From positions 284,901 through 329,121 of the forward strand of contig RQSC01000019.1 in assembly GCA_013416795.1 (NCBI GenBank): 44,221 bases of DNA. The letters are read 5' to 3'. The stretch comes from Prasinococcaceae sp. CCMP 1430. Lineage: Eukaryota; Prasinodermophyta; Palmophyllophyceae; Prasinococcales; Prasinococcaceae. The notes beneath the pieces were generated by a model. The model did no database searches. It worked only from the letters and a program-made list of their open reading frames with translations, and was not told the DNA's origin. This document shows, piece by piece, positions 26,357 through 43,192 of this stretch. Position numbers and translations under genes: made by a program. The number at the start of each line of letters is the position of its first letter. Position 1 is the first letter of the stretch.

Positions 26357-26554
26357 NNNNNNNNNNNNNNNNNNNNNNNNNNNNNNNNNNNNNNNNNNNN
26401 NNNNNNNNNNNNNNNNNNNNNNNNNNNNNNNNNNNNNNNNNNNNNNNNNNNNNNNNNNNNNNNNNNNNNNNNNNNNNNNNNNNNNNNNNNNNNNNNNNNN
26501 NNNNNNNNNNNNNNNNNNNNNNNNNNNNNNNNNNNNNNNNNNNNNNNNNNNNNN
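26357..26554. other. 198-base assembly gap (N)
   Basis: A run of N between two divergent genes, both of which are open right up to the gap. The missing sequence must contain both start codons and the shared promoter, so the true length is probably larger than 198 bases. Confidence 0.98.
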
Positions 26555-27766: not shown

Positions 27767-29666
27767 TCAGTACGCCTATTTCAGGCCGCGCCGAGAGCGT
27801 GGCAGCGCGGCCAGTTCTGTCAGCGTTGGACTTGCACCTTGGTGCGACACAGCTAGGGGGGCGCTCGCGCGAAGCGCACAAGAGGCAGCGCATGCAAGCG
27901 TCGAGCTGAAAGAGTCGTGCTTTCAGCGGTCCGGGGCCGCTGACACAACGTACCTTGGCGAAGATGGCCGTCTCGGCGCCGGCTGCGCCCGTCACGATGC
28001 ACGCACCGCGCTCATCCGCTGGCGGTTGCTCCAGCGGGAAGCAGCGGAGCGTCGCTCCAGTCTCCTCCTTCAGGCGCTTCTCGTCTTCGTCGGACCCATC
28101 CCACGCGCAGCGCACCCACTTCCCCTCCGCGATGGCCGCCTTGAACTCCTCTTCGCTGGTGACGTCCTCGATGTTGGAGTCGCGGAATGCTGTGGCGTCC
28201 GTCAACATCTGCGCCTGGATGTCTGCCATGAGCTCTTCGACGTGCGCCACCAGCGCACCCGCCTCCCACGAGACCCCGAAGGTCTTGCCCTCCTTGCCTG
28301 GCCTGTCGCGGCGCGCCACCACCACCGCCTCCTTCTCCACGTCCTTGGGCCCCACTTCGATGCGCACAGGCACGCCGCGCATCTCGTACTGGTTGAATTT
28401 CCAACCGGGGCGCTCCTTCTCCGAGGCGTCCATGTCCACGCGCACGCCCGCGGCCTTCAGCTTGTCGGTGACGTCCGTGGCGGCCGCCACGACTGCCTCG
28501 CGCTGCTTCTCCTTCTGCCAGATGGGCACGACCACCACCTGCGTGGGCGCGATGGAGGGCGGCAGGCGCAGCCCCGTGTCGTCGCCGTGGGTCATGATGA
28601 GCCCGCCAACCATGCGCGTGGAGACGCCCCACGAGGTCTGGTACACGTGGCGCTGCTCGCCCTCCTCGTCCAGGAACTGCGTGCCGAAAGCCTTGGCGAA
28701 GTTCTGGCCGAGGTTGTGCGAGGTGCCCGCCTGCAGCGCCTTGCGGTCGCCCATCATGGCCTCGATGGTGTACGTGTGCTCGGCGCCAGCGAACTTCTCG
28801 ATTCGGCTCTTGCGGCCGCAGATGACGGGCATGGCCAGCACTCCCTCGGCGAGCTCGCGGTAGACCTCGAGCATCTGCAGCGTCTCGGCCTCGGCCTCCT
28901 CGGCCGTGGCGTGCGCGGTGTGGCCCTCCTGCCAGAGGAACTCGAGCGTGCGCACGAAGGGCCGCGTGCGCATCTCCCAGCGCACCACATTGGCCCACTG
29001 GTTGACCAGGAGCGGCAGGTCGCGGTACGAGCTCACCCACTGCGAGAACATGTGGTTCACGATGGTCTCGGAGGTGGGGCGCACCACCAGGGGCTCCTCG
29101 AGCTCCTTGCCGCCTCCCTGCGTCACCAGCGCGAGCTCCGGCGCGAAGCCCTCCACGTGGTCGGCCTCCTTGGCGATGAACGAGTACGGGATGAAGCTGG
29201 GGAAATACGCGTTCTTGTGACCGGTCTCCTTGAACCTCGCGTCAAGGAACGACTGGATGCCCTCCCACAGCGCGTACCCGTAGGGCCGGATGACCATCGT
29301 CCCGCGCACGGGGCCGTAGTCGGCGAGCTCGGCGGTCTTGATGAGGTCGAGGTACCACGCCGAGAAGTCCTCCGAGCGCGGCGTGATGCCACCCTCGCCC
29401 TTTCCCAGCTTCTTCTCGCCCTTCCCCTTGGCCTTGCCCGCGGCGGCATCGCCTCCCTTGCCGCCCGCGCCGGCCGCCTCGGTGGCGACCGCCGCGGCCG
29501 CGNACGAGATGGCAGCACCCGCGACGAGGGTGGATGCAGTGGAGGCCGCCGCGGCGCGCGTGCAGTACGCGCTATGCACGCGCTCGGTGTGGCATCGATG
29601 CCCCAACACCAACTTTCGAGTTCTCATAGTCCGACAGTTCCTCCGGTGAGTGAGAGGAGATATCAT
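27767..29666 (-). CDS. Prolyl-tRNA synthetase, archaeal/eukaryotic type, with tiny terminal exon
   Basis: Exons 29666-27954 and 27775-27767, about 573 residues. Class II motifs: SQWVSSYRDLPLLVNQWANV, VRWEMRTRPFVRTLEFLWQE, and THGDDTGLRLPPSIAPTQVV. The anticodon-binding and C-terminal zinc-type domains follow (KWVRCAWDG, GATLRCFP). Exon 1 ends AIFAK at a GTACGT donor (27953, phase 0). After a 178-bp intron ending ATAG, exon 2 is only GCG TAC TGA, restoring the family's C-terminal aromatic ending (FAKAY, compare ...SY in other eukaryotic ProRS). The N-terminus is basic and Ser/Ala-rich, like an organellar presequence. Starts at 29666 or 29627 are possible; the frame is open further upstream but without ATG. 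One ambiguous base (29503) lies in the Ala-rich linker. Confidence 0.9.
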
Positions 29667-37863: not shown

Positions 37864-38100
37864 CTATTTCGGAGCGCAACCCCCCTTTTTCCTGAACTTG
37901 CAGTTCGTCTTAGCGTCGCCTTTCCTGCACTTCTTCTTCGACTTGGCCTTCTTGCAAAGCTTCTTGACCTGCTTGGCGGAGAGCCTGGCCTTCTTGCGCT
38001 TCCTGGCCTTCTTCTTGGCCTCCTTCTTGGCCTCCTTCTTGGCCTTCTTCTTGGCCTTTTGGGACTCTTTCGACTCCTTGCTCTTCTCGCTCGTGGCCAC
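37864..38100 (-). CDS. Lys-rich, Cys-containing terminal exon (candidate alternative 3' exon of the macroglobulin gene)
   Basis: Open from an excellent acceptor (TCTTTCCTGCCCCATCCGAAG, ending at 38101) to a stop at 37864, 78 codons, with no in-frame ATG of its own. It encodes a Lys/Ala/Glu-rich helix (ESQKAKKKAKKEAKKEAKKK) followed by a basic segment with four cysteines (LCKKAKSKKKCRKG, NCKFRKKGGC). It is in phase 0 with a GTGCGT donor at 38376 inside the macroglobulin gene. Splicing there would remove 276 bp and replace the GPI-anchor-like C-terminus with this tail. The alternative is a separate small gene whose first exon I do not see. Cloned transcripts would decide. Confidence 0.5.
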   Translation of the reverse strand: MATSEKSKESKESQKAKKKAKKEAKKEAKKKARKRKKARLSAKQVKKLCKKAKSKKKCRKGDAKTNCKFRKKGGCAPK

Positions 38101-38229
38101 CTTCGGATGGGGCAGGAAAGACAGGGACCACGGGCGCGCATGCAGCGTCAGCACGCGGTGGTACGCCCCCCACACGTACAGTATGACTGTGTGCTGCCGC
38201 GGCGCGCGCGCTCACCTCACGCCCGGCGT

Positions 38230-41200
38230 CTACGGGCGAAGGAGCTGCGGCACGGCGAGCGCGAGTGTCGTGCCCGCGAGCAACGCCAGGGGCGGGGCGA
38301 CCGCCGCGGCGGCAGCGGGGCTGTCCGAGGCCTCTTCATCGTCCTCAACGACGACGACCTTGCCATCCACACGCACCGGATTATCGATGATCACCTCACC
38401 GTGGGCGCTCTCCACGCTGTCCGCCCCCACGCTCCCCGCGCCCGCCAGCTCGGGCACGTAGTACGCGAACATGTCTGATGTGGCCGGAGCGAGGTCATGC
38501 ACCGCCGCCGAACGCTCCGCGCGAAAGCTCAGACACGTTTCTTCCTGGCCCACACCGGCGAGGTAGATCTCGGCGCCACCCTCGGCCGCAGGATCGGCGC
38601 GCTTCACCACCGAGGGGGCGCTCGACGCCAGCGACGCCAGCGAGGCGGGGTCGGCAGCGTAGCCCGAAAAGACGCCCGCGCGCAGCAGCACCATGCCCGA
38701 ATGCTCGGCCTGCGCCGCGTTTGGCGAGCTACCGTCAACGCTCGCACAGGCCGTCACCGAGAGCGCACCGCCAGCAGGCCTGGACGTGTCGTTGACGTAT
38801 CTCATGCGCAGAGTGTACGTGGGTGCGATGGGCGGCGCTATGGTGTTGTAGCGCAGCGAGAGCTGCACCAGCGCAATGCCGTCGCCTGACCCAGACAGCG
38901 AGACCGAGCCGCCGGGGGAGACGCTCGCACGCTGCAGCACGAGCGCGTTTTCGCGGTTCACCTCGAAAGTGGCTGTTGCGGCAGTGCCGCCGTCGCTGGC
39001 GGTGATCCGCACTGTGCCCTGCGTAGCAGCCAGGGCAGCGGCGTACTCCGAAAGCGCCTCGAGTGCCACCACAGTGTCCTGCGTTGAAGAGAAGCCACCC
39101 TGTGAGTTGCGCTGTGCGAGCAGCCACCGCGCGGCGGGCGCCGCATCCGCGGCGCGCCCCGCCGCCAGCAATGCCTGCAGCGCGTAACCCGTTGCTTCGA
39201 CCTCCGACGAGCTCGAGTGCGGGGCATAGGGCAGGGCGTCTGCCGCGAAGAGATCAAATGTCGGGGCACTGCCGGTGGGCCAGTACGCCGTGCCGCTGTC
39301 GCCGGCGACAGAAGCGGCCAGGAGCGTGTTCACGGCGTCGTCGACGATGCCCGATGGGCACGACTCAACGGCCGTGTCCGCGTTCGCACACGCCTTGACG
39401 AGCGCGGCGCAGGCAATGGTGAGCGGGTAGCCCGTGAGCCGGTTCAAAGCGTCGGCCAGCACATCGACTGCGGCCTCAGCGGCAGCCCCTGCCGCGTTGC
39501 GCAGCGAGGGGATGCGGCGCGCCTCAGCAAGGGCTGTCAGAACGAAAGCGGTGAGCGCATCGCCTGGGTTCGCCGCCCCGCCCTGCATCTCAGTGTGGAT
39601 CACGTCGCCCACCTCGTCAAAGTGGCCGTCGCGCTCCTGGGTGTTTGCGAGGAAGGCCGAGGCCTGCGAGAGCACGCCGGTGTCCACCGCGATGAACTCG
39701 TATGGCTCGGCGGCCGCCTGCGCGAAGACCTTGAGCACGAACGCCGTCAGCCATGTCGACGCAGACTGGTCCTGCGTGCCGAAAGCAGAGAAGCCGCCAT
39801 CGGGGTGGCGGTAGTTGAGCTCGCGCTGGTATCCCACCATCATGTTGCTCACTGCGCGCGTCTCGGTGTCCGAGTCAAGCTTGTTGACCGCGCTGAGGTA
39901 GCTGGCGACGTACACGTTGGGCGCTAGCCCGATCATGTTCTGCTCGCCGCAGCCGGATGGCATGCGCAGCAGTGACTCGAGGCCCTGCAAAGTGGGGCCC
40001 ATCACGTCGCCTACCACGCTCAGGTAGGCGCGCGCAGAGCCTTCAACGACGTCGCCTGGCAAAGACGCATCGAACGTGTACTCTGTAGAGGCGTCTGCGT
40101 TGGCCTCATCGCGCAAGTCTATGAGCACGTTCTGCACGGTCTCGCGTTCGAAGCCCTCCGCGCGCACGACAACTGCGCGCGTGACTGCGTCGGAGAGTCC
40201 CACAGCCGCCGGCGTCGTTGCCTGTAGCGAGAGGCCCACCGCCCCAAGCTCGGTGAAGCGCACGAGCAGCTCGATGGCTGCCGAGCCACCGGCAGGCAGT
40301 TCGAGCGCCCCGCCATCGGGAAACCCTGCGACAACCTCCACGCCAGGCGAGTCGCGCAGCGCCAGCGTGACGGCGATGTCCTCGGCTCCGTAATTGTACA
40401 CGCCGACGGGGACGGTGAGCGCCTCGCCCCGCACAACGCTGTACGGCAGTCGCGGCGAGAGGAACAACTCTTTCTTGACCACCAGCTCAGCCGAGGCTAC
40501 GCCAGCGGTCGCAGCGACGCCCAGCCCGACATCAGGGGCCGACGCGAAGGCGCTCAGCTCCCACGTCGTGATGGAGTCCGGGGCGGACTGCGCCAGCGAC
40601 AGAGCGCCATCGGTTCCCACGTCTGCGCTCATCCACACCCATGACTCCGGAAAGAACTTGCGCACGCGCTTGACCGAAGTCTGCGCGGCACCTGTACTCT
40701 TGCCGGCACTTTCCTCGGCCCCAGCGGTTGTAGCCTGGGGTGCACCTTCGTCGAAGGCGACGTCCGCGGCGCCGTCGGCGAAGGCGGCGCGCTCAATGGC
40801 AGCGACGGGCATAGCCTCAGCCACTTCAGCGTCGTCAAAGAGGTATCCGAAATACCCGCCCCCGCTGTACGAATTCAGCTGGCACTCGGTAACGACTGTG
40901 GTCTCTGGAGCCGCCAGCGAAACGCCTGCCTGTGCGAGCACCGACGTCGCCCAACGCCGCGCGCAGCTGGGGCGGCTGGGCAGCTCCGCCGCGCCAGTCT
41001 GCGCCTCAAGCACGCGCTCGGCGGTGAGCGCCGAGCTTCCACCAAGCAGGCTCACTGCGCGGTCTACGGCCAGTACAAAGGCACGCGCGCCCGGCGCCGC
41101 CTCAACATTGATCGCTATGCGCTCCCCGGGGCGCGCCACGCTCGTGTTGAATGAGGCCGCAGCGCTGTGGGCCCCATCGACCGCAGCGGCAGTCACGTCG

Positions 41201-43192
41201 AACGCCATTTCGTCAGCAACGAGCTCGCCGTCGGGTCCTGCGTACACCGCCAGCAACGAGCTGGAGGGCGCCATGGCATCAGTGGCGACGAAGCTGATCA
41301 TGGTGGCGGTGGCACTGGCGGCGGTGGCAGCACCGGCGGCGACCACGCCTCCCTTGGCTGCCACGACAAAGTACGACACGTCAGCAGTTCCAGCGGCCGT
41401 GGAATAGAGCGCGGAGACACTGAACGTCTCACCCGAGGGCACTGTCGCACCGCCAGCGATGTCGTGCGACGTCGCCGCTAGCAGCAGACCGCTGCCCGAC
41501 ACCGACAGCGCGCGGGAGGAACTAGTGCTGGCGTACACACCGCTGACGGAGCTTTCCAAGTAAAATCTCGCGCGCGTGTAGCAGCACCCACGAGCGACAG
41601 GCTCGGTGCCGCTGCCACTGCCGTATGGCCACGCGGCCCCCTCTTCAACCCCCTCCCCGGCCGTCGTGTCGTAAACACAAGTCGCCGAGTCGTCAGGCGC
41701 CTCAAAAGTCAGCGTCGCGCTTCCGTCGGCGGCCGTTCGCACTGTCCCGGAGACCTCCACGCTTTGCGTGCGCTGGCACGTACGCCAGTCGTAGTCCTGC
41801 GAGAACGCGCCGCGAATGGTCAACCGTTCGCCGACGTGACCACCACCGCCCGCGGCCGTGGCCAAAACAGACACGCTCACTGGCACCCCCGGCGAAAAGT
41901 GGCGGTCGGCGGAGAGCTCCACACTGTAGGCGTTGCGCTTGGCGTCCACGTTGGCGCTCGCCTGTGCCACGGCACCAGTTGCAGCCTCAGTGACCTGAGC
42001 CTCGACGATGAGCGGGTTGCCGCTGTCAAATATGCTGTCGTACGCCTCGGCACCCGCGGCGGTGAGCGCGAGCTCGAGCTGCGCACTGCCGTCAATGGCG
42101 CCCTCGAACGTCGCGATGAGCGTACCAACGGCGCCATTTGACCTTGTCGACGTGCCGCCGACGTCGCTCCCGACGCCTTTCTCTGCGAATTCCGGGAAGC
42201 CGCCCCAGTAGTGGTAGTAGCTCTCGTCGGCGTACACGCTCACAGACACCGTGCCCTCGACGGGCTCGCCGTAGGTGTACGTGGCGCTAACAGTACCGTC
42301 AAGCGTCTGATCGCCCTTCACAACGGCAGCAGCGAGGTCGAGGTCGACCTCAAATTTGGGCAGCACGTACTCGTCCACAGAGAATTTGGCTGACGCCGAC
42401 GAACCGGACTCTGGAGCCTATGTGCGCACGCGTGATGGCGGGCGCAACTCGCGCTTGCAGCGTCAGACTCGCGCACGCACATCCATAACCCAGCCTGCGC
42501 GCACGCCCTCAGTCCACACGCACCTCAACGTCGACGGTGTAGATGCCGAGCGCGGGCTCGGCAGCCGTGGGCAACACGATCTCAACGGCGCCTACCAGGT
42601 CGGCATTGCGTACCCAGCGAGCAATGATGACGCCGTCTGGGTTCGAGACGGTCACGTGAATCTCCTCACCGGCACCAACCGGCACGAGCGCGGCATCCAT
42701 AGCGAGCGCGCGAATGCGCACGCTTTGACCGGGCTTGTACACGGGCTTGTCTATCTCGATGAGCACGATGGGCGACGCCGGCTCGAGCACAGTGATGGTC
42801 GCGTGCACGTCATCAGCACCGGGTGCGGTGGCGATGAGCTCAAAGTTGCCCGCGGGGAGGTTCGCTGGGAATTCCAGACTACGGAGATCAGGCGCGATCC
42901 CGCCACCCCACGTGACCTCCCACGTCGCGCTTGGCGTCGGTGCGTCGTCGCCTTCCCCGTCGTCGGTGTCTGTGTACAGCCTGAGCAAGATCCGGGTCTC
43001 GACGGCTTCCACCGCCCCGAGGGTGCCGAGCGCGGGCGCGACGGCGATGCCCGCGCGTTCGCCAGCGCGCACGTGTGAGGGTGCGACCACCATAAATCGC
43101 GCGGGAGCGGCCTCGGCGGCGAGCGCCGCCAGCGCCGCCGCGTTGACCGCGAGCGACGCCGCCGCGATGGCGATCCACGCATCCGCGGCCAT
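38230..43192 (-). CDS. Alpha-2-macroglobulin-like thioester protein, secreted, GPI-anchor-like C-terminus
   Basis: Exons 43192-42524 and 42417-38230, 1618 residues. The intron (106 bp, GTGCGT...ATAG, phase 0) joins YTVDVE to APESGSSASAKFSVDEYVLPK, restoring the family's VLPKFEV strand. ATG 43192 has context GCCGCCATGG and starts a hydrophobic signal peptide ending near EAAPA. Macroglobulin motifs: IDKPVYKPGQSVRIRALAMD, bait region ending KRVRKFFPESWVW (about residues 720-810), thioester PSGCGEQNM (Gly1045-Gln1049), GGFSAFGTQDQSASTWLTAF, VIHTEMQGG, and a C-terminal receptor-binding-like domain (SGMVLLRAGVFSGY). The tail is Ala-rich then hydrophobic (PPLALLAGTTLALAVPQLL), like the GPI signal of CD109-type members. 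Such proteins trap proteases or tag surfaces covalently. A TATA-like element lies at about 43331-43340. Confidence 0.92.

Follow-up and report, generated by a model that had tools for sequence, protein, structure and literature searches.

Gene structure and domain organization

A stretch of 44,221 nucleotides from the genome of Prasinococcaceae sp. CCMP 1430 (contig RQSC01000019.1, positions 284,901 to 329,121; hereafter the window) was found to carry a gene for a thioester-containing protein (TEP) of the A2M/complement superfamily. The gene lies on the minus strand of the window, as do all of its features described below, and extends from 43192 to 38230, encoding a product of 1618 amino acids with no internal stop. 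Exon 1 (42524..43192) begins with the start codon at 43192, the first ATG in the open frame, and exon 2 (38230..42417) includes the stop codon at 38230-38232. The 106-bp segment between them (42418..42523, GTGCGT..ACATAG) is predicted to be an intron: it scored highest among 70 in-frame GT/GC-AG candidates when aligned against the relatives P0003, P0012 and P0007. An initial annotation of the window, made by a model from the letters alone, had placed a complete, intron-bearing gene at 38230..43192, and these coordinates proved right. The protein has a 99%-identical twin (P0002, from an ENA record) and a 66%-identical relative (P0003).

The protein has matches to six Pfam families that belong to the A2M superfamily: MG2 (PF01835, residues 147-237, 42376..42754, across the intron; 1.3e-14), MG3 (PF17791, residues 239-286, 42229..42372; 1.7e-13), A2M_BRD (PF07703, residues 549-681, 41044..41442; 2e-17), A2M (PF00207, residues 815-909, 40360..40644; 9.3e-21), the thioester domain TED_complement (TED; PF07678, residues 1023-1348, 39043..40020; 2.2e-77) and the receptor-binding domain, or MG8, A2M_recep (PF07677, residues 1462-1546, 38449..38703; 1.6e-10). 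Each match lies above the curated cut-off of its family, so the assignment is far beyond chance, confirming at the level of sequence that the protein is a member of the A2M/complement superfamily, complete with the receptor-binding-like domain named in the initial annotation. The same six families were found in all four other proteins scanned from the algal clan described below (P0003, P0007, P0012 and P0014). No separate Pfam match was obtained for MG1 or MG4, and no anaphylatoxin or C345C (NTR) domain was matched in the protein at an E-value of 0.001. In a predicted structural model, the TED superimposed on C4d/C3d fragments with a root-mean-square deviation of 2.0-2.4 over 277-289 residues (4.6 in one row). 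The receptor-binding domain is accompanied by a cysteine pair, Cys1447 (just before the domain) and Cys1518. Counted by clan (see Phylogenetic position), these two cysteines are present in 32/41 and 30/41 algal rows and in 63/67 and 63/67 animal rows, and the pair is found in 0/88 prokaryotic rows.

Reactive centre, plug and bait-like region

The thioester motif GCGEQ (39940..39954; Cys1046 and Gln1049) lies within RMPSGCGEQNM and is intact, as the initial annotation had stated for PSGCGEQNM; the Cys and Gln are present in 196/196 aligned rows. The catalytic residue His1164 (39595..39597, in VIHTEMQGG) is aligned to the His of VIHSELQGG in human CD109. A His occupies this position in 41/41 algal, 56/67 animal and 87/88 prokaryotic rows, the prokaryotic figure being 27/29 in a second alignment with added loci. 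A nearby His is reported to convert the thioester to an acyl-imidazole, and A2ML1, like C3 and C4B, then reacts with both hydroxyls and amines (PMC9156758). Since the catalytic residue is His1164, as in CD109, we predict that it sets the thioester chemistry of the algal protein, and that bonds would form with hydroxyls as well as amines.

A plug motif, R809-K-F-F812 (40651..40662), retains the conserved R and F, which are present in 33/34 algal rows (the remaining row has a gap), 30/30 animal rows and 29/29 prokaryotic rows. The plug has been tied to the protease-triggered change, and its Arg and Phe are invariant among the human proteins of the family (PMC9156758). Residues 736-806 (40669..40881) form a poorly conserved, bait-like stretch, the worst-conserved internal part of the protein: identity to P0003 is 27%, with 26 gaps in 77 columns, compared with 58-71% in the domains after it and 48-56% before it (MG2 to residue 700). 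The confidence of the structural model is low at residues 725-799.

Hydrophobic ends and the predicted anchor

Both ends of the protein are hydrophobic. Residues 1-30 (43103..43192; mean hydropathy 2.1 over residues 7-25) are likely a signal peptide, and residues 1586-1618 (38233..38331; mean hydropathy 1.8 over residues 1594-1612) resemble a glycosylphosphatidylinositol (GPI) signal or a tail anchor. The signal peptide and GPI-like tail named in the initial annotation thus stand as hydrophobic ends, their roles as signals being read from hydropathy. By a rule with thresholds set by the authors, a hydrophobic C-terminal end is present in 29/34 algal, 16/30 animal and 0/29 prokaryotic rows. The genome also contains a PIG-T-family match, identified by Pfam, and two weaker Peptidase_C13 matches (on contigs C107 and C73) whose nearest relative is GPI-anchor transamidase (2.6e-51 and 4.7e-25), making them PIG-K-like. 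Because of the hydrophobic C-terminal end and these PIG-T-family and PIG-K-like matches, a GPI anchor on the protein is plausible. The strongest Peptidase_C13 match (on C24) was also considered as PIG-K and was rejected, as it is a legumain/vacuolar-processing enzyme.

A cysteine insertion in the algal sequences

An insertion specific to the algal sequences (41581..41778; Cys437, Cys470, Cys501 and Cys502) precedes the A2M_BRD domain. Its C..CC pattern is present in 34/36 covering algal rows, 0/61 animal rows and 0/84 prokaryotic rows, and takes the form CC..CC in 31 algal rows. The two exceptions are Pyramimonas P0007 and P0122, which starts inside the insertion and keeps the second CC. In the group to which the window belongs, the first pair is reduced to one cysteine (Cys470), and the upstream Cys437 keeps the total at four; of 34 algal rows checked, the window, P0002 and P0003 alone have this residue. 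Four cysteines would fit two disulfides. Model confidence is low in the insertion. As a character outside the columns used for the trees, the insertion supports the algal clan.

Phylogenetic position

The homologues compared were the best 120 of 2529 and the best 120 of 2314 matches; no fungi, amoebae or choanoflagellates are among the rows, which at this scope is no evidence of their absence from the family. Trees were built with FastTree (196 rows) and with mixture models, a quick one (86 rows) and a careful one (60 rows). The rows of the latter two were chosen from 93 aligned rows, themselves drawn from the 196 rows plus nine loci, with near-identical and short ones omitted. All three unrooted trees contain the same three clans, algal, animal and prokaryotic, supported at 100/97, 100/98 and 100/100 in the 60-row tree. 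The algal clan owes its name to the window and to five rows that carry an organism's name (two from Pyramimonas and one each from Cymbomonas, Polarella and Symbiodinium), 35/41 of its rows being nameless; in the prokaryotic clan 7/88 rows carry the name of a prokaryote, and the others were assigned by the tree. Within the algal clan, a group supported at 98/94 in the 60-row tree unites the window, P0003, P0123, Cymbomonas and Pyramimonas.

Three groupings were rejected in the approximately unbiased (AU) test: algae and bilaterian CD109/TEP (p 0.0025), algae and protostomes (p 1.2e-5), and algae and vertebrate CD109 (p 0.0044); these p-values are somewhat optimistic, because the groups were named after a tree had been viewed. 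By these sequence comparisons the algal clan is separate from animals and prokaryotes. The initial description of the protein as animal/bacterial-type therefore holds for its membership of the A2M family, but not for its position, which is in a clan of its own, apart from the animal and prokaryotic homologues and marked by its own cysteine insertion.

Two rows carry sponge names, P0047 (Oscarella lobularis) and P0135 (Corticium candelabrum), and come from contigs 3.5 and 9 Mb long. Both belong to the animal clan and have Asp in place of the catalytic His. Seven further rows (P0019, P0027, P0029, P0031, P0033, P0035 and P0059) form a tight group in the algal clan with an unusual letter make-up, one of them on a 180-kb contig. 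A viral origin was also considered, and two IMG/VR scans, one with P0059 as the query, returned no relative.

Comparison with known thioester-containing proteins

Human CD109 is the best solved relative by sequence (E 1.1e-119), and a Foldseek search with the predicted model of residues 430-1618 also returned CD109 as the best match (4.4e-64), although it was not the top row with a second structural aligner. The algal protein shares with CD109, a GPI-anchored animal protein, the order of the six Pfam domains, the lack of anaphylatoxin and C345C matches, GCGEQ, the His in V-I-H-x-E, a hydrophobic C-terminal tail and the cysteine pair of the receptor-binding domain. It differs in lying outside the animal clan and in carrying the algal cysteine insertion, and bird CD109 is 33% identical over 761 aligned columns. 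The best reading of these comparisons is that the algal TEP would work like CD109 and A2ML1, yet is no CD109 orthologue. Insect and mollusc TEPs (TEP1) belong to the animal clan, and a grouping of the algae with protostomes is among those rejected above.

The CD109-like proteins of prokaryotes (Chloroflexota, Actinomycetota, Methanolobus and kin) have a TED with GCGEQ, mostly the catalytic His, and the plug. They differ from the algal protein in lacking the receptor-binding-domain cysteine pair and the hydrophobic C-terminal end, and in forming a separate clan. A survey of such genes retained 80 loci from 180 relatives (L010-L089), in Chloroflexota (many of them Dehalococcoidia), some Actinomycetota and archaea (Methanolobus, ANME-2 and Altiarchaeales; Methanosarcinales-type); GCGEQ was present in 9/9 translated loci, and the surveyed genes are distinct from the ECAM type. 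The relation to the bacterial ECAM/YfhM-type protein of E. coli K-12 is a distant one through the thioester domain: YfhM has GCLEQ in place of GCGEQ, and the best BLASTP stretch covers 96 columns (2e-8). ECAM-type macroglobulins also have additional N-terminal domains (PMC9156758).

Complement C3, C4 and C5 are set apart by the anaphylatoxin and C345C (NTR) domains, for which the algal protein gave no match. Tetrameric alpha-2-macroglobulin has Asn at the catalytic position, where the algal protein has His1164; the alignment row P0011, with Asn at this position, fits this difference. The A2M-family genes reported from the green algae Micromonas commoda, Bathycoccus prasinos and Pycnococcus provasolii (PMC9156758) are probably of the same subfamily as the window TEP, with which they are set together here by description. 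The report differs in inferring a transfer from animal to alga, and its available part does not describe an algal clan, the insertion, the His or an anchor.

Proposed function and alternatives

We propose that the gene probably encodes a membrane-tethered TEP of the A2M/complement superfamily that acts at the surface of the alga as a covalent trap or tag, set off by a protease. After secretion the protein would stay attached to the cell, probably through a GPI anchor at its surface. A protease, foreign or the alga's own, would cut the fast-diverging bait, and by homology the R..F plug would then be pulled out and the thioester domain swing open. As the conserved residues suggest, the thioester, once exposed, would be attacked by His1164, and the resulting acyl-imidazole would bond to the protease, or to the surface bearing it, through hydroxyls or amines. 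The most likely use is to trap or tag, at the algal surface, proteases that attack the cell together with whatever bears them (bacteria, grazers or lysed neighbours). Such trapping of proteases or tagging of surfaces is what one would naturally infer from the thioester, the catalytic His, the plug, the divergent bait and the likely tether; the protease-trapping or opsonin-like defence of the initial annotation is in line with this intact chemistry, while the function itself, like the anchoring, the activation and the target, is something we infer from the gene, its residues and its domains.

Some results weigh against the interpretation given here. The MG1 region (33% identity) and the tail (19%) diverge from P0003 about as fast as the bait-like stretch, so divergence supports a bait without proving it, and the bait-like region named in the initial annotation stands as a divergent stretch. 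In the AU test, a grouping of the algae with non-sponge animals was not rejected (p 0.055). With E. coli K-12 YfhM as outgroup, the algal rows made up one side of a branch in just 11% of 200 bootstraps. The YfhM branch spans 10 changes per column and attaches to an algal row, and this rooting was rejected as long-branch noise, a saturated branch that breaks the algal clan; it is the only tree against a clean algal clan, and it counts against any claim on the root of the family. The gene may have been transferred once, at an early stage, from stem animals, or the root may lie within animals. Horizontal transfer of the green-algal gene from an animal, as suggested for Micromonas, Bathycoccus and Pycnococcus, would agree with the report that there is no authentic land-plant copy and no wider presence in Mamiellales (PMC9156758), and with human CD109 being the closest solved structure by sequence. 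We consider it unlikely, given the separate, well-supported branches of animals and algae, the AU rejection of bilaterian, protostome and vertebrate groupings, and the clan-specific C..CC insertion. Its position could suggest instead that the gene is a contaminant of animal or bacterial origin, or that the contig was misjoined, as about 1 kb of contig remains upstream of the start codon. This explanation is nevertheless barely credible: the gene has a predicted intron, a 99%-identical copy in an ENA record (P0002) and neither an animal nor a prokaryotic placement in the trees. Composition, named in the initial annotation as a possible sign of contamination, is in line with the surroundings: the codon usage of the TEP gene correlates with that of five neighbouring frames (mostly stop-to-stop open frames that may include some non-coding sequence) at an r of 0.95 for relative synonymous codon usage, and its third-position GC content is 0.79, against 0.79-0.90 in those frames. 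The next recognised gene downstream also has green-algal relatives, Prasinococcus and Bathycoccus among them.

Two other uses of the same chemistry were weighed, and both are weaker than a trap or tag for attacking proteases. The protein could be a feeding opsonin that covalently labels bacterial or other prey, helping a phagomixotrophic alga to retain and ingest it. Cymbomonas, termed phagomixotrophic in the title of PMC4911474, and Pyramimonas are among the named carriers. Dinoflagellates carry the gene too, and the His-type chemistry common to all the algal rows would be suited to surface hydroxyls. Phagotrophy is, however, doubtful in the small prasinophytes Micromonas and Bathycoccus, and this makes a feeding role unlikely. 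Both are also carriers (PMC9156758). The sole possible uptake receptor in the genome was a single LDL-receptor class A match (G000:C95:25834-25947, 3.2e-6), a possible surface receptor from the only receptor family sought. Alternatively, the thioester could serve in building the wall or scales, bonding glycans of the alga's own scales or glycocalyx once an endogenous protease has triggered it. Many prasinophytes bear organic scales, and a likely surface tether with hydroxyl-reactive chemistry would suit such self cross-linking. It is nonetheless quite improbable, as no link to scale genes was found, the neighbouring transporter and PQ-loop genes may be there by chance, and to our knowledge many of the dinoflagellate carriers lack such scales.

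Relation to published work

A2M-family genes in Micromonas commoda, Bathycoccus prasinos and Pycnococcus provasolii were previously judged most likely authentic, with a transfer of metazoan origin proposed for the green-algal copies; the origin of the family was placed in animals after the sponge split, sponges being said to lack it (PMC9156758). As green-algal copies are already in print, the window TEP represents a new subfamily, proposed here and seen so far in algae and unnamed plankton, and not a new kind of system. Judged by titles and the opening lines of abstracts, the reports found on CD109 in phytoplankton and on thioester-containing proteins in microalgae include none on an algal TEP, and PMC9156758 was the only report found on a Bathycoccus macroglobulin. 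How widespread the protein is in algae, a question left open by the initial annotation, can be answered in part: the named carriers among the matches listed are Pyramimonas, Cymbomonas, Polarella and Symbiodinium (prasinophytes and dinoflagellates), to which the published Micromonas commoda, Bathycoccus prasinos and Pycnococcus provasolii can be added.

The present data disagree with the available part of PMC9156758, in that the algal clan does not nest in Bilateria and includes dinoflagellates, and sponge-named rows fall in the animal clan. A separate, cysteine-marked clan, together with the sponge-named and prokaryotic CD109-like copies, makes the view of an animal origin testable and probably too narrow. 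More tentatively, and with less than even confidence, we hypothesize that early eukaryotes already had a CD109-like, His-type, membrane-tethered thioester protein, or that it spread among phototrophic eukaryotes at an early stage, and that it survives in marine algae as a widespread system of defence or prey capture. If so, animals would not have invented complement-style thioester chemistry at the cell surface, and the algal form would have a disulfide-bearing insertion of its own. TED_complement and MG2 each gave one match across the whole genome, so that one TEP copy was found; a gene found once in a small genome offers a handle on the possible dealings of unicellular algae, at their surface, with proteases, bacteria or grazers.

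Genomic context

The window is the final 44 kb of a 329-kb contig in a genome of 24.5 Mb and 145 contigs, and its GC content is 68.1%. In the genome the chlorophyll-binding family was matched 22 times, in part by exon pieces, and on these grounds the source is an alga, as it had first appeared to be. The nearest solved structures to one of these matches were LHCI, Lhcb and chlorophyll a-b binding proteins. Very long 'open frames' had suggested light-harvesting polyproteins; the two that were checked are runs of N (X in 1532/1782 and 1235/1700 residues), and the idea was dropped.

The recognised neighbours of the TEP gene are a UAA-family (3'-phosphoadenosine 5'-phosphosulfate (PAPS)-like) transporter, the recognised gene just downstream, and a PQ-loop protein. 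Among the matches listed, the best-scoring named relative of the transporter is from Prasinococcus, with others from Bathycoccus, Cymbomonas and Bryopsis; it has a 99% twin in an ENA record, and Prasinococcus is also the nearest named row by path in its tree. Just past the 3' end of the TEP gene lies a lysine-rich open frame of 115 amino acids (37864-38211, minus strand). N letters occur in the window as a run at 26357-26554 (an assembly gap) and singly at 29503 and 35243. A frame on the minus strand at 9985-11697 matches the A_deamin (adenosine deaminase, editase) domain (8.8e-36) and is probably a tRNA adenosine deaminase.

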